From NCBI RefSeq assembly GCF_000803645.1, contig NZ_CP009122.1, positions 1 to 64,000 on the forward strand: DNA of 64,000 nt, read 5' to 3'. This document shows, one piece after another, positions 54,368-64,000 of the stretch. The notes below the pieces were generated by a model. It saw nothing but the letters and a program-made list of their open reading frames with translations, made no database searches and was not told where the DNA came from. Source of the DNA: Sphingopyxis fribergensis (GTDB taxonomy: Bacteria; Pseudomonadota; Alphaproteobacteria; Sphingomonadales; Sphingomonadaceae). Each line of letters begins with the position of its first letter. Position 1 is the stretch's first letter. The translations under genes and the position numbers were made by a program.

Positions 54368-54441
54368 GGCCCGATGGCGGAGTGGTGACGCAGCGGATTG
54401 CAAATCCGTGCACGCCGGTTCGATTCCGGCTCGGGCCTCCA
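54368..54441 (+). tRNA. tRNA-Cys (GCA)
   Basis: 74 bases with acceptor stem GGCCCGA / TCGGGCC, anticodon loop TTGCAAA with GCA, T-arm GCCGGTTCGATTCCGGC and encoded CCA. Its 3' end is the probable attachment site of the integrated element that begins immediately behind it. Confidence 0.95.
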
Positions 54442-54604
54442 ATAACCGGTCGGCAGATGGTTGCTGATGGTTGAAAAACTCGCGGATTTCTGCTAGTTAT
54501 GAGGCACTCACTGATTGTCGGTGATGGTCTCTGATTGTCCGTAATTGCGGCCGTTGGGGGCCTTTTTCGGGGCAGGAGAGGCCCCCATTAGCGCGAGGCC
54601 CCCA
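54442..54604 (+). promoter_or_regulatory. attL/integrase leader with repeats and hairpins
   Basis: Between the tRNA and integrase lie two copies of CTGATTGTCsGT (54511 and 54531, spaced 20 bases, two helical turns), candidate arm or regulatory sites. TTGGGGGCC (54554-54562) pairs with GGCCCCCAA (54597-54605), which includes the A of the start codon, so the integrase start could be buried in a hairpin. AGGAG at 54574 is far from the ATG. Confidence 0.5.
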
Positions 54605-55921
54605 ATGGCGCTGACAGATGCTGCAATCCGAACCGCCAAGCCTAGAGAAAAGTCATACAAGGTTGCAGATTCGAAGGGCCTGTACCTCCAAATCAATCCC
54701 GGTGGCAGCAAGCTTTGGCGGTTGAAGTATCGTATCAACGGCGTAGAGCGGAAACTGGCACTAGGCGCTTATCCCGAAATCAGTTTGGCCGAGGCTCGCG
54801 AGGCGCGCGACGCTGCGCGCAAGCAAGTGGCGCATTCGATCGACCCGAATTTCGCAAAACGGGAAGCGCGAATTGAAGCGAGCGTGCGCGCTCGCAACAG
54901 CTTCGCGCATGTCGCCGACGATCTCATTCAGAAGAAGACCCGCGAAGGTTTGGCCGCGCCGACACTGAAGAAAATGCACTGGTTCGTGAAGCTGTTGGGT
55001 CCTGAATTCGGCAGACGCCCAATCGCCGACATCACTCCGCATGAAATCTTGCACGAACTTCGCAAGCATGAACGGCGAGGTCGGCTTGAAACCGCTAATC
55101 TTCTAAGGTCATTCGTCAGTCGGGTTTTCCGATATGCGGTCGCGACCGCGCGCGCGGATCGCGATCCTGCGCAACTGTTGATCGGGGCGCTGACGATCCC
55201 GAAGGTGAAGCATTTTTCGGCGATCACCGATCCAGTGGTATTTGGCGGACTGTTGCGCGCAATCGATGATTATCAAGGTGACCCAGCTGTAATGGCGGCG
55301 TTAAAACTTACGCCCCATCTGTTCCAGCGTCCCGGTGAAATGCGCCAGATGGAGTGGAGCGAGATCAATTTCGACAAGGCGGTCTGGACGATCCCGGAAG
55401 GCAAGATGAAGATGCGCCAGCCCCACGCCGTACCGCTTTCGCGGCAGGCGCTCGCGATCCTTGCCGACATGCGAATTTTGTCGGGTTCAGGCCAATATGT
55501 CTTTCCGTCGGTCCGCACCCGGTCGCGACCCATCAGCGACAATACGTTGAACGCCTCGCTGCGGCGCATGGGATATCCCAAGGATCAAATGACGGCGCAT
55601 GGTTTTCGCACATCGGCATCGTCGCTCCTCAACGAATCGGGATATTGGAATCCCGACGCGATCGAGCGCGCCCTCGCCCACGCGGTCGGCGGCACCATTC
55701 GCCGCATCTATAATCAGTCAGCCTATTGGGCCGAACGTGTCGAGATGGCTCAGTGGTGGAGCGATTATCTCGACGATCTGCGTGAAGGAGGAAACCGATG
55801 CCCGTCGCCGAGACCCCACCCTCGACCGGGATATGGAATCGGACGGGCGACGCCCATAGGAGTCTCTCGCGGATTGCCGCTCGCCTCCTATTCGCCAAGG
55901 ACAAGGAGGAGCTGGGGCTAG
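54605..55921 (+). CDS. int: P4-type tyrosine recombinase integrase
   Basis: Integrase of 438 residues with an N-terminal DUF4102 domain (begins MALTDAAIRTAKPREK), a SAM-like core-binding domain (about 95-185) and the catalytic domain. All catalytic residues are visible: R242 in QRPGEM, K269, H332 and R335 in HGFR, H359 and Y369 in RRIYNQ. It directs insertion of the element at tRNA-Cys. The last 40 residues overlap the next gene by 124 bases. Confidence 0.94.
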   Translation: MALTDAAIRTAKPREKSYKVADSKGLYLQINPGGSKLWRLKYRINGVERKLALGAYPEISLAEAREARDAARKQVAHSIDPNFAKREARIEASVRARNSFAHVADDLIQKKTREGLAAPTLKKMHWFVKLLGPEFGRRPIADITPHEILHELRKHERRGRLETANLLRSFVSRVFRYAVATARADRDPAQLLIGALTIPKVKHFSAITDPVVFGGLLRAIDDYQGDPAVMAALKLTPHLFQRPGEMRQMEWSEINFDKAVWTIPEGKMKMRQPHAVPLSRQALAILADMRILSGSGQYVFPSVRTRSRPISDNTLNASLRRMGYPKDQMTAHGFRTSASSLLNESGYWNPDAIERALAHAVGGTIRRIYNQSAYWAERVEMAQWWSDYLDDLREGGNRCPSPRPHPRPGYGIGRATPIGVSRGLPLASYSPRTRRSWG

Positions 55922-56886: not shown

Positions 56887-57054
56887 ATGGAACCCCTAGT
56901 CCTTTCGATCAACGAAACCGCGAAGGTTCTCGGTATCGGCCGGTCCTCGGTTTATGCCCTGATCAAGTCGGGATCGCTCGACGCGATAAGGATCGGGACG
57001 CGAACCTTGCTGACCACAGAGTCGATCCGGCGCTTGACTCAATCAGCCAATTGA
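56887..57054 (+). CDS. Excisionase/AlpA-type HTH protein
   Basis: 55-residue protein with the MerR/Xis-like winged helix: SINETAKVLGIGRSSVYALIKSG then AIRIGTRTLLTTESIRRL. Probably the excisionase or regulator of the integrase. ATG 56887 has CGGAGA nearby. No larger start is justified. Confidence 0.85.
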   Translation: MEPLVLSINETAKVLGIGRSSVYALIKSGSLDAIRIGTRTLLTTESIRRLTQSAN

Positions 57055-57622
57055 TCGGCGCGATCGCTCGACTTGCGGTGATGAATAAGCAGCATTCGCG
57101 CGCAGCGCCGATGCGGGCAGGACATCTACGTCGGTCTTATGGTGAGCGCGGCCTCAAATGAGCGCGCACCGGCGGCGGCAGGCGCCGCCAGAGGTCGCGC
57201 GTTGGCACGGTTGGCCGCGCAGCGCTCTTGTCTCGCTTCTTGGCGCCGCGGGCGCGCGGCCCTTGCGGCGGGGACGCAGCGCGCGGCGCTGCTCCGGACG
57301 CGGCGCTGCCACGTCCGACCCACCACCGGCCCGCGCACACCGCGGCACCGGCGGCTGCGACAAGGGCGCGTCTGTTCTCCAATGATGACGCCGCGCTGAT
57401 CGCGCGCCGGCGCTGTGCTTGGGCCGGCCACGGACAGCGTGGCAGTCGGCGCACGGCTGTGGGACCGCTCGGCCGGCGCGCAAGCCGTCGCTGCGCGTCG
57501 GCTCCTCCATTGCATTCCGGCCCTGCGGGTGCGCGCCGTCCTTTGGCGCGGTCCCGTCGCCTTTCCTCGCCGCCCGCCCCGCCGTCCGGGGCCGCGTGTG
57601 GTGGAAGGAAAGGAGAAAGATC
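57055..57622. other. GC-rich region before the ParB-like gene
   Basis: 568 bases without a credible gene; the open frames there are GC shadows. The first part has several GC-rich inverted sequences (GGCGGCGGCAGGCGCCGCC near 57166). From 57465 it holds leader copy A. Confidence 0.5.
57465..57622 (+). promoter_or_regulatory. Conserved leader copy A (before the ParB-like gene)
   Basis: CCGCTCGGCCGG (57467) then CTCCTCC (57502) and CCCTGCGGGTGCGCGC (57521), then GCCGCCCGCCCCGCC and AAAGGAG before ATG 57623. Blocks occur in the same order and spacing in copies B and C. The transcript start is unknown. Confidence 0.55.
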
Positions 57623-59416
57623 ATGAAGCTTGATTTTATCGATGTGGATCATCTGTCGATTGCGACGACCAATATGCGCGGGAAGGGCAAGGACCCCGAT
57701 GTGTCCGACCTGCTCCCCAGCGTTCGCGCGCGCGGGGTGCTGGTGCCGCTGCTCGTTAGGCCCAACTGTTCCGAAGGCCATTATGAGATCGTTGCGGGAC
57801 GTCGGCGTTTTACCGCCGTGAGCGTCGTGGCGCGCGAGGGCGGCGCGGTGAAGCCGATCCCCTGCGCGATCCTCGACGAGGGCGACGATGCCGATGCGCT
57901 CGAAGCGTCGATGCTGGAAAATCTTGCGCGGGTCCGGCCCGACGAGGTCAGCCAGTGGGAAGCGTTCGTCGCGCTGGTCAAATCGGGGCGCAGCGTCGAC
58001 GAGGTGGCGGATACGTTCGGGTTCGAGGCGTCCGCGGTGAAGCGCATCCTTGCGCTCGGCAATCTCTTGCCGCGCATCCGCACTCTCTATCGGCGCGGCG
58101 AGATCGATGCGGGCACGGTGCGACACCTGACCCTTGCCTCGAAAAGCCAGCAGAAGGCATGGCTGGCGCTGTTCGACGACGAGAGTGCCTATTGCCCGAC
58201 CGGCCATCAGCTCAAGGCGTGGCTGTTCGGCGGCAACGCCATCGCGGTGAAACACGCGCTGTTCGATGTTGCCGAGGCGAAGCTCGCCATCGTCTCGGAC
58301 CTGTTCGGCGAAGACAGCTATTTTGCCGACAGCGATGCTTTCTGGACCGCGCAGTTGGAGGCCATCGAAGCGCGCAAGGCCGCGTATCTCGACGCGGGAT
58401 GGCCCGATGTCGTTATCATGGAACGCGGAGACTGGTTCCAGTCGTGGGGTTATGTCCATGCGAACAAGCGCAAGGGCGGTCGCATTTATGTCGAGGTTCG
58501 CGATAGCGGCGAGGTCAGCTTCCACGAAGGCTATGTGTCCACCAAGGAGGCGAAGCGGCTTTCGGGCGGTGGCGGCAGCGATGATGAGAACACGCACGCA
58601 ACGAAGCCCGCGCGCCCCGAAGTGTCGGGTCCGCTCAATGCCTATATCGACCTGCACCGTCATGCGGCGGTGCGCGCCGATCTGGCCAGCCACGGCGGCG
58701 TCGCGCTGCGGGCGATGCTTGCGCATGTCATCGCGGGCGCCGACCTGTGGCGGGTTGATATCGAAAGCCAGCGCGCGCCGAAGGAAGCGATTGCCGAGAG
58801 CGTCGAGACTTGTCCCGCCGAAACGGCTTTCGACATCAAACGCCGTGCCGTGCTGGCGGTGCTGGGATTCGATGAGGACACCCCGACTGTCACGGGAAGG
58901 CCGCTTCACCGGCCCCCTTTTGCGCCCTTGTTCCAGCGGCTGCTCGAACTCCCCGATCCGGTGGTCCTGGAGATCGTGGCGATCGTCATGGGCGAGACCT
59001 TGGCGGCGGGCAGCGAGGCGGTCGAGATGATCGGCCTTCATCTGGGCACCGACATGCGCCAGCACTGGCAAGCCGACGCGGCCTTCTTCGACCAGCTTCG
59101 CGACCGCGAAGTGCTGCTCGCCATCACCAGCGAGGTCGCGGGCGCCGAGGTGGCGGCCGCGAACGCCGGTGAAAAGGCAAAGGCGCTGAAGGCGATCATC
59201 GCCGATTGCCTTGCGGGCGCGAACGGTCGCGCCAAGGCCGAGCCGTGGGTGCCGAAGTGGATGGCGTTCCCGCCGACCGCCTACACGTCGCGCGGCGGCG
59301 TCGGCAGCGTGAAGGCGGCGGCGCGCGTGGCGTTCGATCTTTCGGCTCCCGCCGATGCCAATCCGGTCGAGCGGGGCGGTGCGCCCGACGGCAACGAGAC
59401 GTTGCTTGCAGCGTAA
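57623..59416 (+). CDS. Large ParB-like protein of the element
   Basis: 597 residues. The ParB N-terminal nuclease/CTPase-like domain is at about 1-120, with VAGRRRFTAVSV (GERRxRA-type box) and ENLARVRPDEVSQWEAF, followed by the HTH domain (SVDEVADTFGFEASAVKRILALGNL). The large C-terminal part (about 210-597) is not chromosomal ParB-like and may bind DNA or partner proteins. A ParA is not in the window. Its leader matches copies B and C. Ribosome site AAAGGAG. Confidence 0.87.
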   Translation: MKLDFIDVDHLSIATTNMRGKGKDPDVSDLLPSVRARGVLVPLLVRPNCSEGHYEIVAGRRRFTAVSVVAREGGAVKPIPCAILDEGDDADALEASMLENLARVRPDEVSQWEAFVALVKSGRSVDEVADTFGFEASAVKRILALGNLLPRIRTLYRRGEIDAGTVRHLTLASKSQQKAWLALFDDESAYCPTGHQLKAWLFGGNAIAVKHALFDVAEAKLAIVSDLFGEDSYFADSDAFWTAQLEAIEARKAAYLDAGWPDVVIMERGDWFQSWGYVHANKRKGGRIYVEVRDSGEVSFHEGYVSTKEAKRLSGGGGSDDENTHATKPARPEVSGPLNAYIDLHRHAAVRADLASHGGVALRAMLAHVIAGADLWRVDIESQRAPKEAIAESVETCPAETAFDIKRRAVLAVLGFDEDTPTVTGRPLHRPPFAPLFQRLLELPDPVVLEIVAIVMGETLAAGSEAVEMIGLHLGTDMRQHWQADAAFFDQLRDREVLLAITSEVAGAEVAAANAGEKAKALKAIIADCLAGANGRAKAEPWVPKWMAFPPTAYTSRGGVGSVKAAARVAFDLSAPADANPVERGGAPDGNETLLAA

Positions 59417-59420
59417 AGGC

Positions 59421-59456
59421 AGGGCGGGCGGCTTCGGTCGCCCGCCCATTTTTTGC
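59421..59456 (+). terminator. Intrinsic terminator of the ParB-like gene
   Basis: GGGCGGGCG (59422-59430) pairs with CGCCCGCCC (59439-59447) over an eight-base loop, followed by ATTTTTTG. It lies 5 bases after the stop. Confidence 0.9.
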
Positions 59457-60024
59457 GGCCCCAAAATGACGCCCCGGCCTTGCCGGCCGGCGCGGGGTCA
59501 TTCGTTTCGGGCGCGCCGCCGCCGCAAGCGGCAACGGCGCGCGAAGATTTGAAAAATGGAGAATCTGGGGCGGTGCGAATTTTTCCCCTCCCACCGCCCC
59601 GACGATCATCGCGTTGATGATGCATCGCCCTGCCACCGGCAACTGGAACCGTGGTCGCATACGCCCGGCTGCGCTGGCAGGTGCGGTCATTTTTAGTCCA
59701 GCGGACTGGTTTGAATAGCCGGAATCTGCTCGTCTGCCGGATTGCTCCAAATCGCGACAAGCGGGTCTCAACATCCTTACGCATGCCCGGCGCCAGCCGG
59801 TCGCAACATCATATTCTCGTCCTATGCGGGAAGGGCGGCGTTGTCGCTTGTCCCGTTCGTGGCTGATCGATTGGGTCGTTGCGCGACGGCAGTCTTTAAT
59901 CGCTTCAATCTCTCATATTTCGATAATTGACCGTCCCGCCCGATCGATAGCCGATCGTCTCCAGCGCAGCAGAACCATCCCGGCGACGGGCGAGATGACC
60001 TGTCCCGGCGCGGTGCCCCGCGAA
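59457..60024. other. Non-coding region with hairpins after the ParB-like gene
   Basis: About 570 bases with no credible gene. Hairpins: TGACgCCCCG...CGGGGTCA at 59467-59500, GCGCGCCG/CGGCGCGC at 59511-59542, GGGGCGGTG/CACCGCCCC at 59567-59600. A less GC-rich stretch is at about 59893-59931. Possible oriV, ncRNA or partition-site region. Confidence 0.4.
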
Positions 60025-60107
60025 AGTGCGGCGGCGCGATTATTTCCCCGCGTGCTGCGCACGCTCCTCGCGGGCCGCTTCGCTTCAAATAATCGCGCCG
60101 CCGCACT
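60025..60107. repeat. Perfect 21-bp inverted repeat with nested stems
   Basis: Arms 60025-60045 and 60087-60107 are exact reverse complements (AGTGCGGCGGCGCGATTATTT). In the 41-base loop, CCCGCG (60047-60052) pairs with CGCGGG (60069-60074), and GTGC-TGC-GCAC lies within. It ends directly before leader copy C. Confidence 0.85.
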
Positions 60108-60215
60108 CCTCCGCTCACGCTGTGGCCCTTCGGGTTCGCGCGGCGCCTTATGCGCCGGCCCCTGGTCCGCCCATGCCGCAGGGATGGTCCCACGGCACAG
60201 TGAAGGAGACGACCA
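60103..60215 (+). promoter_or_regulatory. Conserved leader copy C (before the DUF736 gene)
   Basis: CTCCTCC (60106) then GGCCCTTCGGGTTCGCGC (60124), GCGCC...GGCGC-like hairpins, and GAAGGAG before ATG 60216. Its blocks match copy A at the same distances. It adjoins the 21-bp inverted repeat. Confidence 0.55.
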
Positions 60216-60539
60216 ATGGCAGCTATCGGCTTTGTGAACGGCACCATCGAAAAAGGCTTCGTGGGCCAGCTCAAGACCCTCTCGATCCGCGCCGCGATCG
60301 AGATACGCCCCAACCGCTCGAAGAACGGCGATATCCAGCCCGACTACCGGGTCTATTCCGAAGGCGTCGAGATCGGTGCCGGCTGGGTCCGCATCGGCGA
60401 AGCTTCGGGCAAGCCTTTCGTGTCGCTGACGCTGGCGGCCCCCGAGTTCGGGCCGCGCCGCATCTACGCCAACCTCGGCCGCGCCGCCGGCCAGGACAGC
60501 GAAGATGCCTATGCGATCATCTGGAACCCCGACAACTGA
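60216..60539 (+). CDS. DUF736 protein
   Basis: Protein of 107 residues, MAAIGFVNGTIEKGFVGQLKTL onward with RPNRSKNGDIQPDYRVYS, GAGWVRIGE and YVSLTLAAPEFG-like blocks, the DUF736 pattern found on alphaproteobacterial plasmids and conjugative elements. Function unknown. Excellent GAAGGAG ribosome site. It is followed by its own terminator, so it is a single transcription unit. Confidence 0.9.
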   Translation: MAAIGFVNGTIEKGFVGQLKTLSIRAAIEIRPNRSKNGDIQPDYRVYSEGVEIGAGWVRIGEASGKPFVSLTLAAPEFGPRRIYANLGRAAGQDSEDAYAIIWNPDN

Positions 60540-60550
60540 GCCGGGCTTCC

Positions 60551-60583
60551 GCCCCGCGCCGCGGTCTGCGGCGCGGGGCTTTG
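60551..60583 (+). terminator. Intrinsic terminator of the DUF736 gene
   Basis: GCCCCGCGCCGC (60551-60562) pairs with GCGGCGCGGGGC (60568-60579), a 12-bp stem with a five-base loop, then TTTGCTG. Confidence 0.8.
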
Positions 60584-60594
60584 CTGTGCGCTGT

Positions 60595-60834
60595 TCAGAC
60601 AGGGCCGCCGCCGGGCTTATTGTCGCGATCGAGGTCGGCGACGGTAAAGGTCATCGGGTTGCGCAGCCAGACATTGACCTCGCCGACACGCCAGCCGCAG
60701 CAGCGCGTCGCGATCTTGTGCTGTGGCGGGAACGTCCCGGCGGCGATCTTGCGATAGAGGGTCGCGCGGCTGAGGCCGGTCAGATCGAGCACTTCATTGA
60801 GCCGCATGAGGCGGAGGGGGGATTGGAATGCCAT
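60595..60834 (-). CDS. AlpA-family HTH regulator
   Basis: 79-residue protein: LRLMRLNEVLDLTGLSRATLYRKIAAGTFPP then a WRVGEVNVWL segment, the AlpA/MerR-like winged helix used by satellites and integrative elements. Start ATG 60834. It lies on the opposite strand, convergent with DUF736. Its target is unknown. Confidence 0.85.
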   Translation of the reverse strand: MAFQSPLRLMRLNEVLDLTGLSRATLYRKIAAGTFPPQHKIATRCCGWRVGEVNVWLRNPMTFTVADLDRDNKPGGGPV

Positions 60835-61227
60835 GCTGTTCTACTCCATCTGGTGAACGAATTTGCGTCGACACGAGATAAAGAAAGCATGACGGGCGTT
60901 GCCGTCAACACCGCAGAAAACCGTCATTTACGGCATAGTGCACTGGCGTAGGGCCGTGGGTATCCGCCGGTATCCATGGGGACTTCCTGGGAGTTGTGGC
61001 GTAGGCTGAAATTTTCTGTCTCATCAGGTCTCGCCGGCAGTTGTCCCCCGCCCGATGAGGCCGTCGAGGACGGCCGCGTCCGCAAATGACGCGCCGTAAA
61101 CGGCGCGGCGTCTATCCGATTCGCGTGAGATGAGCGCGCCGGTGGCGCGCAAGCGGTCGCCGCTCTCGCGGCGGCGGAGTTTGTCCCGGCGCGGCGGGGG
61201 CGGAGGTGGGCGTCACTCGCCTTTAGC
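60835..61227. other. Non-coding region between alpA and leader B
   Basis: 393 bases with the alpA promoter on one side and, from about 61020, palindromes: CTCATC...GATGAG (61022-61058), GACGCGCCG-taaa-CGGCGCGgCGTC (61088-61112) and others. No credible gene. A TTTGTCCCGGCGCGG at about 61180 also occurs as CTGTCCCGGCGCGG just before the 21-bp repeat of copy C. Confidence 0.45.
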
Positions 61228-61386
61228 CCCGCCCGGCCGGGCCGCAACCCGCGTGCCGCGGGTTCTCCACTTCGTTGCGATCCTGCGGATGCCGCCCGAC
61301 CGATGATGCGGGTCTGCCGGCTCCTTCCTGCCGCCCACCCCGCCCCCCTCCGGGCCGGGGTGCGGTGGCTGGAAGGAGACCGAAGG
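61228..61386 (+). promoter_or_regulatory. Conserved leader copy B (before the sigma-region-4 gene)
   Basis: CCGCCCGGCCGG (61229), TTCTCCACTTCG (61263), CCTGCGGATGCCGCC (61282), CTGCCGCCCACCCCGCC and GGAAGGAG before ATG 61387. The first 23 bases differ from copy A at only four places. Confidence 0.55.
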
Positions 61387-61635
61387 ATGATGGACCGTAA
61401 ATCGCGCGAGCAGCGGCTGCAACTCTGGCGAGCCGAGCGGGCCGTTGACCGCTTGCCCCGCATGACCCGCAAGGTCTTTCTCGCGATCCGCGTCGAGGAG
61501 CTGAGCTATTCCGAGATTGCCGCCCGGTTCGGCATCAGCATCGCCGATGTCGAGGCGCATTTTGCGGTGGCCTTGCGCATCCTCAAGAAAGTCATGGATG
61601 AAAAAGATCCATGGTGGTGGCGATTCCGGCGGTGA
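61387..61635 (+). CDS. Sigma-70 region-4-only DNA-binding protein
   Basis: 82-residue protein that consists of a region-4.2-like HTH (LSYSEIAARFGISIADVEAHFAVALRIL) and a short basic N-terminus. Region 2 is absent, so it cannot be a complete sigma factor. GAAGGAG ribosome site. Together with leaders A-C it could regulate the element; inference. Confidence 0.82.
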   Translation: MMDRKSREQRLQLWRAERAVDRLPRMTRKVFLAIRVEELSYSEIAARFGISIADVEAHFAVALRILKKVMDEKDPWWWRFRR

Positions 61636-61696
61636 TGACCGCTCGCGAGCCGGATGGCGCTTGCCATCCGGCCGATGCAATTACAGGATGATAAGG

Positions 61697-62626
61697 ATGC
61701 GAACCGACCTCGATCATCTCCCGACCAACAAGCAACGCGAACTCGAGCGCGTAAAGCAGATCATCTTCGAGGAGTTCGCCGACAGCATCGCGCTCGCGAC
61801 GATGAGCTGGAAGAAGGAGGGCCGGATCGACAAGATCATCCTTTACGGCAGCTACGCGCGCGGCGGCTGGGTCGATGAGCCGCATACGGCGAAGGGCTAT
61901 CGGTCGGACTTCGATCTGCTGATCATCGTCAGCGACAAGCGCCTCACCGACAAGGTCGAATTTTGGCCGAAGATCGAGGACCGTCTCAATCGCGAGCTGT
62001 TGATCGACAAGACGCTCCACACGCCCGTCAACCTCATTATCCATACCATGTCCGAAGTGAACGACGGTCTCGCGCACGGGCGCTATTTCTTCATGGACAT
62101 CGCGAAGGACGGCATCGCGCTTTACGAGTTCGACAACAAGGAATTGCACAAGCCCAAGCCGAAGACACCCGATCAGGCGCTCGACATGGCGCAGGAATAT
62201 CTTGACAGCTTTTTTCCAGCGGCGATGCAATCTTTTGAGGGCGCACATTTCCACATTGGCAAGGGATACGTGAAGAAGGCAGCGTTCGACCTGCACCAGA
62301 CGACGGAGCAACTTTACCATTGCGTCCTATTGGTCTGCACTTTCTACACCCCGCATGTTCATAATCTGGCGTTCCTTCGCACCCAGGCCGAACGCCTCGA
62401 CATGCGTCTCGTCGATGTCTGGCCGCGCGAATTGAAGTCGGATCGCAGGCATTTCGAGAAGCTCAAGGAAGCCTATGTGAAGGCGCGCTACTCGAAGCAT
62501 TACCGCATCACCGAGGAGGAATTGCGCTGGCTCGGCGAACGCGTCGAAGAACTCGGTCGGGTCGTGCATGCCATTTGTTCGGAGCGAATTGCCCAGCTTA
62601 AAGCCGCTACGCAGGCTGGTCGCTGA
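61697..62626 (+). CDS. Nucleotidyltransferase-HEPN fusion protein
   Basis: Protein of 309 residues. The N-terminal half is a minimal nucleotidyltransferase (GSYARG at 51-56, acid pair DFD at 71-73). The C-terminal half (about 170-300) is a HEPN domain (KKAAFDLHQTTEQLYHCVLL and ARYSKHY). In the classical MNT/HEPN toxin-antitoxin the two are separate; here they are fused and no canonical R-x4-6-H is clear. ATG 61697 has AGGA at about 8 bases; ATG 61688 is the alternative. A tightly linked CxxC protein follows. Confidence 0.85.
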   Translation: MRTDLDHLPTNKQRELERVKQIIFEEFADSIALATMSWKKEGRIDKIILYGSYARGGWVDEPHTAKGYRSDFDLLIIVSDKRLTDKVEFWPKIEDRLNRELLIDKTLHTPVNLIIHTMSEVNDGLAHGRYFFMDIAKDGIALYEFDNKELHKPKPKTPDQALDMAQEYLDSFFPAAMQSFEGAHFHIGKGYVKKAAFDLHQTTEQLYHCVLLVCTFYTPHVHNLAFLRTQAERLDMRLVDVWPRELKSDRRHFEKLKEAYVKARYSKHYRITEEELRWLGERVEELGRVVHAICSERIAQLKAATQAGR

Positions 62627-62641
62627 TTCGTGCCTCAACGC

Positions 62642-62854
62642 ATGACAATCGCTGGGCAAATCGAGGCGCTGATCCAGCGCCTCGAAGGCGTGGCGATCTG
62701 TGATGATTGTATCACCGATCGCCTAAATCTGTCGGTGCGCTCGCAGGCCAATGTCGTGACGCGCGGCCTTGGAGGCGCAGGCGGCTACGCCCGCGAGAAG
62801 CAGCCCTGCGGACTTTGCAGTTCGGTCAAGGTCTCGACGTCACATCATCGCTGA
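62642..62854 (+). CDS. Small zinc-ribbon-like protein downstream of the NT-HEPN gene
   Basis: Protein of 70 residues with two CxxC pairs (CDDC near 20-23 and CGLC near 56-59). The context suggests a zinc-binding partner of the nucleotidyltransferase-HEPN protein. GTG at 62630 would start only three bases after the previous stop, and ATG 62642 is the alternative chosen. Overlaps the convergent traD by 29 bases. Confidence 0.7.
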   Translation: MTIAGQIEALIQRLEGVAICDDCITDRLNLSVRSQANVVTRGLGGAGGYAREKQPCGLCSSVKVSTSHHR

Positions 62855-63056
62855 CGCCATCGGCGAACGCGCGTTTGCCGCGACGACGCCATAACATCAA
62901 TCGCTGCTCGCGGCCTTCGCCGCGCAGCGTCGCAGCGGCTTCGACGAGTAGGCCCAGAATGACGGCGCGATCGTCGCCGGTGAGCTCGACCAGATCAGCC
63001 TTTGCAACGAGGCCGCCAAGCTCGATCAACTGGCGCGTGCGTTCGCGGCGCTTCAC
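62826..63056 (-). CDS. traD: Conjugal transfer protein TraD (small)
   Basis: 76-residue protein (from GTG 63056) with KRRERTRQLIELGGLV and LMLWRRRGKRAF, the small TraD found beside TraC and TraA on Ti-type conjugative systems. The upstream frame is open but has no ATG; the start is uncertain. TraD follows traC on the same strand. Confidence 0.72.
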   Translation of the reverse strand: MKRRERTRQLIELGGLVAKADLVELTGDDRAVILGLLVEAAATLRGEGREQRLMLWRRRGKRAFADGVSDDVTSRP

Positions 63057-63072
63057 CTGCCATGCCCGCGTG

Positions 63073-63396
63073 TCATGCCGCGCCCGCTTCGCCTGAAGGC
63101 GATTGCGGGCTTGTATTGACCGCCGAAGCGCCGCGCGCGTTCCGGCCAGCGCCTTTGCGAATGCAGGCGCCGTCCCCGCGAAAGAACGCCGCGCCGCTCT
63201 TGCTCCACGCCTCCTTCCGCGCCGCGTCTGCGCCGACAACATCGAGCAGTGCACCCGCAAGCTGTTCGATCGACAAGGCATCCGCGCCTGTTGCTATCAC
63301 AAGCTCACCGAGCTGACCTTGCTTCTTCATCTTGAGCGCCTTGGCCTTGTCGGTCAGCGCCTGAAGTTCGGCGTCGAAATCTCTCGGTTTGCGCAT
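63073..63396 (-). CDS. traC: Conjugal transfer protein TraC
   Basis: 107-residue relaxosome-type protein. MRKPRDFDAELQALTDKAKALK is the family start, then QLGELVIATGADALSIEQLAGALL. In Ti-type transfer systems it assists the relaxase at oriT. ATG 63396 has AAGGACAG. Its tail ends as TraD begins. Confidence 0.88.
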   Translation of the reverse strand: MRKPRDFDAELQALTDKAKALKMKKQGQLGELVIATGADALSIEQLAGALLDVVGADAARKEAWSKSGAAFFRGDGACIRKGAGRNARGASAVNTSPQSPSGEAGAA

Positions 63397-63511
63397 CGTC
63401 TGTCCTTCCATTTGTGAGGGTCGGACGAACCAGCTATGCCGAGTCTCACGCGTGCACAAGCTGCTGAAATCTCCCGAGACTTTGTGATCCCGAGCGCGAT
63501 GAAATCGTGTG

Positions 63512-63539
63512 AGGGCGCGCTTATACGTCGTGCCGACGT
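63512..63539. other. oriT: Probable origin of transfer (oriT)
   Basis: AGGGCGCGCTTA (63512-63523) differs by one base from the MobQ-type nic region of RSF1010 (AGGGCGCACTTA, from memory of that plasmid). Directly after it is a perfect inverted repeat ACGTCG-TGC-CGACGT (63525-63539), the same layout as RSF1010. It lies between divergent traC and traA, where Ti-type systems keep oriT. The cleavage site itself is inferred. Confidence 0.75.
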
Positions 63540-63568
63540 GCTCGTTTTGCTGTAAATGGTACGCCGCT

Positions 63569-64000
63569 ATGGCGATCTACCATTTCTCGGCAAAAGTCAT
63601 TTCGCGCGCGGTCGGCAGCAGCGCGGTGGCCGCCGCCGCCTATCGCTCCGCCGATCGCCTCCACGACGAGCGGCTCGGCCGTGCCCACGACTTCTCGAAC
63701 AAGGCCGGCGTCGTCCACAGCGAAGTGCTGCTGCCCGAAGGCGCGCCCGAGGAGTGGCGCGACCGCGAAAAACTCTGGAATGATGTCGAGGCGGCGGAGA
63801 TTCGCAAGGATGCGCAGCTCGCGCGCGAAATCGAGTTCGCGATCCCGCGCGAGATGACCGAGAAACAAGGCATCGAGCTTGCCCGCGACTTCGTGCAAAG
63901 CGAGTTCGTCGACCGCGGCATGATCGCCGATCTCAATGTCCATTGGGACATCGGCGCCGACGGACTGGCACGGCCACACGCCCACGTCATGCTGACCATG
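63569..64000 (+). CDS. traA: TraA/MobA-type conjugative relaxase (N-terminal part)
   Basis: The first 144 codons are present and the gene runs out of the window. MAIYHFSAKVISRAVGSSAVAAAAYR is the MobA/MobL motif with the catalytic Tyr, and HAHVMLTM at about 137-144 is the HxH metal motif. In Ti plasmids TraA nicks oriT and has a helicase C-terminus, not visible here. ATG 63569 is not preceded by a strong ribosome site. Confidence 0.9.
   Translation, partial: MAIYHFSAKVISRAVGSSAVAAAAYRSADRLHDERLGRAHDFSNKAGVVHSEVLLPEGAPEEWRDREKLWNDVEAAEIRKDAQLAREIEFAIPREMTEKQGIELARDFVQSEFVDRGMIADLNVHWDIGADGLARPHAHVMLTM

Follow-up and report, generated by a model that had tools for sequence, protein, structure and literature searches.

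Related folded leaders before the ParB-like, DUF736 and sigma-region-4 genes of a Sphingopyxis fribergensis conjugative element as candidate single-stranded DNA promoters

The stretch analysed here (the window) comprises the first 64,000 nucleotides of contig NZ_CP009122.1 of Sphingopyxis fribergensis (RefSeq assembly GCF_000803645.1). Its right-hand part contains genes for a ParB-like protein, a DUF736 protein and a protein with sigma-70 region 4 (sigma-r4), each with a GC-rich leader in front of it (leaders A, B and C, respectively), as well as transfer genes, among them the relaxase gene traA, which is divergent from traC/traD (Table 1). The leaders sit on a mobile, conjugative element. The type of TraA was assigned using the gene present in locus L136, which scored 2.1e-272 with the NCBIfam profile TraA_Ti and 3.8e-72 with MobQ.

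Table 1. Leaders, genes and candidate transfer origin in the right-hand part of the window (window coordinates).
Feature	Position	Strand	Details
Leader A core	57463..57556	+	outer stem, variable hairpin, TCCTCC, small hairpin, CCCTGCGGG hairpin; models R1 and R2
Leader A terminal hairpin	57560..57615	+	3' arm includes Shine-Dalgarno AAGGAG; fold, RNAalifold
ParB-like gene	57623..59416	+	597 aa; PF02195 ParB_N 1.3e-11
Leader B, whole	59957..60210	+	GTCTCC (59957-59962) closes with Shine-Dalgarno GGAGAC (60205-60210)
Leader B core (modelled by R1)	60004..60163	+	R1; covariation in alignment A1
Leader B, P1 5' arm	60026..60045	+	20-bp stem; partner 60087-60106
Leader B, P1 3' arm	60087..60106	+	partner 60026-60045
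DUF736 gene	60216..60539	+	107 aa; PF05284 3.8e-24
AlpA-like gene (excision-factor type)	60595..60834	-	PF05930 1.1e-14
Leader C core	61227..61317	+	R1
Leader C terminal hairpin	61321..61378	+	CTCCTTCC...GGAAGGAG; hides Shine-Dalgarno
Sigma-r4 gene	61387..61635	+	82 aa; PF08281 1.7e-11
TraD gene	62826..63281	-	PF06412 7.3e-20
Candidate oriT	63506..63540	-	inverted repeat and TAAGCGCGCCCT (63512-63523), between traC/traD and traA
TraA relaxase, gene start	63569..64000	+	gene continues past window end

The core common to the leaders opens with an outer stem and either GAA or CAA; a variable hairpin comes next, and then TCCTCC, a small hairpin that by eye varies from CTTCG to TTGCA and similar sequences, a hairpin of the CCCTGCGGG type and the closing arm. 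In leader B, the variable hairpin is the 20-bp stem P1; its inner part, CCCCG...CTCCTCGCG, is conserved, and relatives keep the stem though the sequences differ. Leaders of DUF736 genes possess an extra outermost stem, formed by GTCTCC and the Shine-Dalgarno GGAGAC, so that the whole leader closes on itself, in B about 5 bases before the start codon; in the predicted folds of A and C, the Shine-Dalgarno lies inside a separate terminal hairpin. The RNA fold of leader C has a z-score of -5.0, and the minus-strand DNA folds of B (-86.4 kcal/mol) and C have z-scores of -5.3 and -4.3, respectively.

The sequence-only reading of the window had claimed that related leaders with one order of blocks precede the three genes, and both the kinship and the order, CTCC(T)CC, CCTkCGGrT, a GC-rich hairpin and GGAAGGAG, were confirmed. 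The local alignment of A and C scored 83, well above the maximum of 45 among 1000 dinucleotide shuffles; the scores of A with B and of B with C were equalled by 51 and 84 of the 1000 shuffles, respectively, and are not significant. Simple sequence comparison thus missed B, and a covariance model was needed to reveal its kinship to A and C. This model, R1, was built from 22 DUF736 leaders only (leader B of the window and 21 leaders from other loci) and, when run on all 64 kb, it ranked B first (E-value 1.1e-29, a training row), followed by A (1.8e-5) and C (1.1e-4), with the fourth match at 0.4. Since A and C were outside the training set, yet are the next-best matches in the window, they belong to the same family as B. 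A second covariance model, R2, matched leader A with an E-value of 1.8e-11, A being one of its training sequences. In alignment A1, which contains the same 22 DUF736 leaders, 31 pairs, picked from A1 itself, keep their pairing in 90.3% of cells; in 23 of these pairs both partners have changed, and covariation scores 0.494, compared with at most 0.086 for slid partners. The leaders are one family with a covarying fold. Chance or GC composition as the source of the likeness was ruled out by the shuffles, the covariation and the R1 ranking; a reading as plain inverted repeats was ruled out as well, since the conserved junction, the distance to the start codon and the gene context exceed it.

Conservation upstream of homologous genes, the other point on which the claimed kinship could be judged, is also present. 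The same signature was found in 60/60 DUF736 leaders of the window and the ParB loci, from Sphingopyxis to Mesorhizobium, Croceicoccus and Asticcacaulis; the ParB loci are the best 80 of 94 ParB-like loci, and the set of 60 was assembled without L095 (a masked stretch) and without matches beginning after residue 6. Within the 600 bases upstream of DUF736, the part between -240 and the ATG has an identity of 0.88-0.93, against 0.32-0.66 (21 Sphingopyxis-type sequences) or 0.58-0.80 (28 Mesorhizobium-type sequences) beyond -240; the conserved block is about 240 bases long and begins near -242 in relatives. The ParB loci of the Sphingopyxis clade carry a near-identical copy of leader A. Leader C has an 89% copy at G000:C1:2526640-2526779 (minus strand) and a 70% copy directly before the ParB paralogue at 2118363. 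Equal-scoring leaders (40.8 bits) of the same length and the same G+C were observed at G000:C1:2520312 (minus), 4204731 (plus) and 4768059 (plus), on three elements of one genome; each precedes an ArdC-like gene of 289 aa, and a second leader comes next in each of these elements.

The search for leaders in the window, 12 stretches of its own genome and 79 of the 80 ParB loci (all except L098) gave 166 matches, and open reading frames (ORFs) were called behind 165 of them, leaving aside L070:9136-9191, which is cut at the locus end. The 161 ORFs obtained comprise 62 DUF736, 45 ArdC-type and 23 ParB-like genes; the other 31 form small groups and include some plainly miscalled ORFs. In the loci oriented by ParB, 150 of the 151 leaders share the strand of the ParB gene. 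In further loci, the distance from the core to the start codon is 47-75 bases in 41 of the 47 rows with a recognised gene. Leader C, ardC and the sigma-r4 gene follow in this order in L046, L053, L056 and L061, and the ArdC protein of L046 was recognised by both its domains (ArdcN 3.1e-41, MPTase-PolyVal 7.6e-52). A comparison of the junctions (window 61317-61387 and L046:9677-10567) shows that ardC is gone from the window element. Leader C abuts the sigma-r4 gene in the window because ardC is missing there, so that, of the three genes to which leaders had been assigned from the sequence alone, the ParB-like and DUF736 genes stand as such and the sigma-r4 gene is secondary, the leader C of relatives preceding ardC. 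A leader in L179:1501-1632 (minus strand), a locus of the same class, lies 58 bases upstream of an ArdA antirestriction gene (PF07275 9.8e-42). Leaders were also observed before genes for proteins of about 310 aa (L191:489, L193:12144, L194:8349, L196:9306 and others); the protein of L191 is a YAcAr/SLOG protein (PF10686 2.1e-31), the others are similar by eye, and these proteins are possibly products of early-acting genes. Genome G000 contains eleven DUF736 genes in 11 places, and DUF736 was reported on every element of the ICESym type compared in PMC8627217.

Regarding the direction of transfer, the candidate origin of transfer (oriT) lies between traC/traD and traA. Scanning the window with the MOBQ motif at up to two mismatches gave 3 matches where chance would give 3.8, which makes the motif by itself uninformative, and no printed version of the MOBQ nick sequence was found in the literature searched; TAAGCGCGCCCT differs by one mismatch from what we take to be this motif. 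An identical 35-base block is present between the same genes in two more elements of the genome, and in 3/3 elements the block lies on such a strand that the leader genes would have the incoming strand as template; the transferred strand would accordingly be the minus strand of the window. According to PMC8627217, elements of this kind have traA and traC in divergent orientation, with oriT between the two genes on the Ti plasmid, and PMC6856555 assigns the Ti relaxases to MOBQ2. Among the 32 stretches in which orientation was analysed, 19 had no match to TraA, RlxS or the block of rdfS, traF and a transglycosylase gene, and the leaders point at one of these in all 13 stretches that hold one. 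In ICEMlSym, rdfS is located upstream of oriT and rlxS (PMC11963761). Leaders pointing toward the relaxase or the rdfS-traF block imply that the incoming strand would be their template.

The strand that folds can be approached through mismatches in the stems: a fold in mRNA tolerates G-U pairs and not A-C pairs, and A-C on the gene strand corresponds to a G-T wobble on the opposite DNA strand. The long-type (DUF736-like) leaders, taken as the 64 best rows of alignment A2 (61 of them distinct), contain 67 A-C and 16 G-U mismatches, with 64 in the eight other types together; the remaining 78 distinct rows, lower-scoring and aligned by the model, contain 26, 13 and 45, respectively. Tree parsimony gave 39.6 events from Watson-Crick to A-C and 12.1 to G-U in the first set, with 17.1 returns from A-C and 1.3 from G-U; for a second set, in which 62 rows were drawn from other genomes and plasmids and lie before genes of mixed kinds, the values were 36.5 and 14.0 events, and 8.5 and 3.9 returns. 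Isolated mismatches counted with an equal-penalty alignment in 201 distinct sequences of all leader types were 205 A-C, 82 G-U and 544 other. When these were grouped by average linkage, clusters with more A-C than G-U outnumbered the reverse 41:10 among 79 clusters (sign test, p = 1.5e-5), and a second and a third clustering gave 29:8 of 54 (p = 7.5e-4) and 18:1 of 26 (p = 7.6e-5); single linkage joined 164 of 209 sequences (raw counts A-C 46, G-U 18, other 139). Signal recognition particle (SRP) RNA from the same class, aligned with equal penalties as a control (28 of 30 loci fetched), gave 31 G-U and 1 A-C; a tRNA control with 14 distinct sequences was uninformative (acceptor stems G-U 2, A-C 3). 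The P1 stem alone, with equal penalties and n = 70, has A-C 35, G-U 18 and 103 in the eight other types. In the outer stems (n = 114/118) the counts are A-C 241, G-U 143 and 591 in the eight other types, which places G-U at the mismatch baseline. Cytosine deamination on the transferred strand was considered as a cause of the A-C excess and ruled out, since the unpaired columns have no G>A excess per base (one set: G>A 48.0 per 1658 G cells, C>T 83.9 per 2728 C cells; the other set: G>A 71.1 per 1195 G cells, C>T 175.2 per 2111 C cells). The pattern suggests that the long-type leaders fold in the transferred DNA strand.

Early expression from incoming single-stranded DNA has been described for the enterobacterial plasmids F and ColIb-P9 (PMC9849209); Frpo1 and Frpo2 of F are stem-loops on the incoming strand, which drive early expression of leading genes (PMC9849209, PMC11541004), and ardA is a leading gene of ColIb-P9 (PMC9849209). 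The F leading region contains an antirestriction gene, ssb, a large ParB-like gene and psiB. Like the Frpo and single-strand initiation (ssi) sequences of F and ColIb-P9, the leaders are non-coding and present in several copies per element before different leading-region genes, have antirestriction and large ParB-like genes nearby, and precede genes that would be templated by the first-entering strand, on which a stable stem-loop is predicted. Unlike Frpo/ssi, they are GC-rich, have a branched fold with no -35/-10 seen and occur in integrative and conjugative elements (ICEs) and plasmids of Alphaproteobacteria. R2 found no match in five stretches of F-type leading regions (best E-values 1.6 and 2.9), which places the leaders outside the Frpo sequence family.

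We tentatively interpret the leaders as copies of one folded leading-region element that may act as Frpo-like single-stranded DNA promoters without being Frpo homologues, a reading that we place close to, and slightly below, an even chance. A Frpo-like role is proposed because the gene content, place, direction, copy number and, in the long type, the folding strand match Frpo1 and Frpo2. Computation supplies the single family, the covariation, the gene context, the orientation and the strand-biased mismatches of the long type; we infer the nick and strand of oriT, the folding in the cell and the promoter activity. The transferred strand, here presumably the minus strand, would enter the recipient single-stranded, and each leader copy would fold; RNA polymerase could then start on the fold, which would look double-stranded, and ardC (antirestriction) and the ParB-like and DUF736 genes would be expressed before second-strand synthesis. 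The extra terminal hairpins of A and C, which would hide the Shine-Dalgarno, could silence read-through mRNA in the donor. A mixed scheme, with a DNA fold for early expression and an RNA hairpin for silence in the donor, is possible.

Several observations weigh against single-stranded promoters. The motif and nick position of oriT are presumed ones. No sigma-70-type promoter was predicted on either strand of the duplex between 57100 and 61700, in a search that did not cover the alphaproteobacterial consensus, and no convincing -35/-10 was seen in the folds read by eye. Seven stretches with TraG only are split, the leaders pointing toward it in L186, L187 and L190, away from it in L184, L185 and L201, with L183 mixed, TraG being no marker of oriT; G547:C6:225388-232073 holds four leaders in 7 kb, one of them (G547:C6:228996) on the opposite strand, and the single reversed leader among the 151 in ParB-oriented loci lies in L055. 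The outer stems of short-type (ParB/ArdC) leaders are symmetric (A-C 25, G-U 27, with n = 73/96 parsed), and the terminal hairpins are RNA-like both in leader A (G-U 22, A-C 3 in 24 relatives) and in leader C (G-U 25, A-C 4 in 15 relatives), these sequences being closely related and representing few independent events. Frpo copies themselves, 11 from five plasmids and too few and too alike, gave A-C 21 and G-U 16. The single-strand DNA fold of A is unexceptional (z-score -1.5), and identity upstream of ParB stays high past the core in parts (0.86-0.89 to -300, 0.92 at -480).

The RNA-like hairpins bring up a structured 5' untranslated RNA, transcribed from an upstream start, the mRNA leader of which would fold and control translation, mainly via the hidden Shine-Dalgarno; possibly a ligand, a small RNA or a protein is involved, or the leader merely blocks read-through translation while the element is integrated. 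The leaders do resemble cis-regulatory RNA leaders of the Rfam type in having helices with covariation immediately before a Shine-Dalgarno and a start codon, and the Shine-Dalgarno of A and C lies in a strong hairpin with conserved G-U pairs, that of B pairs with the distal GTCTCC, and the TCCTCC beside the variable hairpin could pair with a Shine-Dalgarno as well; the outer stems of the short type, too, lack a DNA-strand bias. Unlike such RNA leaders, they have no counterpart in Rfam, where a search of the whole window at the gathering threshold gave tRNA only and a search of 57000-62000 that admitted E-values up to 5 yielded four matches, of which not one came close to its gathering score, which rules out a known RNA family, and the long-type mismatches follow the pattern of the opposite strand, being enriched for A-C and not for G-U over other mismatches, the reverse of SRP RNA. 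The absence of a visible sigma-70-type promoter in 57100-61700 and the lower conservation of the sequence upstream of the DUF736 element also speak against an RNA leader, which we regard as unlikely. The shared RNA regulator proposed by the sequence-only reading therefore survives as a shared structured regulatory element and, possibly, as an RNA in the terminal hairpins that would cover the Shine-Dalgarno of A and C, with their RNA-like mismatches; for the long type, the RNA fold is disfavoured, since the mismatches favour the transferred strand.

Without any promoter role, the leaders could serve the transferred strand as sites for single-strand initiation or landing, and such sites would share the strand-biased folding and the placement in the leading region with Frpo-like promoters. 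Such hairpins would prime complementary-strand synthesis, as ssi sequences and single-strand origins (sso) do, or bind primase, SSB, ArdC or the ParB-like protein. The title of Masai and Arai 1997, cited in PMC11541004 and PMC9849209, credits Frpo with yielding transcription as well as primer RNA, and ICEBs1 has an sso (PMC4595007); the leaders would resemble the sso of rolling-circle plasmids and ICEBs1 in being strand-specific folded DNA in a conjugative element. Unlike an sso, they are present several times, with a gene closely following every copy, and priming alone needs no such spacing as that found between core and start codon; a landing-site role on its own thus appears improbable.

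A double-stranded operator or cruciform bound by the AlpA-like, sigma-r4, DUF736 or ParB-like protein for autoregulation is very improbable: the element does carry helix-turn-helix (HTH) and sigma-r4 genes, and extrusion is conceivable for long perfect inverted repeats, P1 of B among them, but such a site would use both strands alike, unlike the A-C excess, and the stems keep their pairing while the sequence changes. A promoter class read by the HTH proteins of the element, another earlier suggestion, gained no specific support, given the lack of a sigma-70-type site in 57100-61700; a promoter in duplex DNA is disfavoured because a double-stranded site would not give strand asymmetry.

As for the surroundings of the leaders, a tRNA gene was observed at 54368-54438, followed by a tyrosine integrase gene at 54587-55921, and these two likely mark the left attachment site of the element. 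Upstream of the AlpA-like gene, no match was found by R1, which was run over the 64-kb window. A gene for a nucleotidyltransferase with a HEPN domain (61697-62626) is located between the sigma-r4 gene and traD, and plasmid pSA2 (L207) has a gene annotated in the same way.

Of 385 genomes belonging to the class Alphaproteobacteria, 34 had R1 matches (E-value 0.001), as had 45 of 398 genomes of a phylum sample (E-value 1e-4), five of these 45 lying outside the class; the window's own genome is counted in either figure, and the filters of both searches were set more strictly, so that weak matches may have escaped. Presence and copy number of the leaders are patchy among genomes, as expected for mobile elements. 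No title about elements of this kind in Alphaproteobacteria appeared among the literature matches listed, subscription papers being mostly outside the coverage.

It is conceivable, with somewhat less than an even chance, that the leaders represent a new and widespread family of single-stranded DNA promoters that lack sigma-70 boxes and any relationship to Frpo. They would activate the genes for ArdC, ArdA, ParB-like and DUF736 proteins within the first few minutes of transfer and would span conjugative elements of Alphaproteobacteria, some of them related to the rhizobial symbiosis islands. If so, one covariance model would locate leading regions and predict the direction of transfer in many ICEs and plasmids, and genes of unknown function, such as those for DUF736 and YAcAr/SLOG proteins, would be flagged as early-acting. 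Such promoters would also pose a puzzle, as RNA polymerase would have to start on a GC-rich hairpin without the usual -10 box. The mismatch-asymmetry test offers a simple way of probing palindromic elements for the strand that folds.

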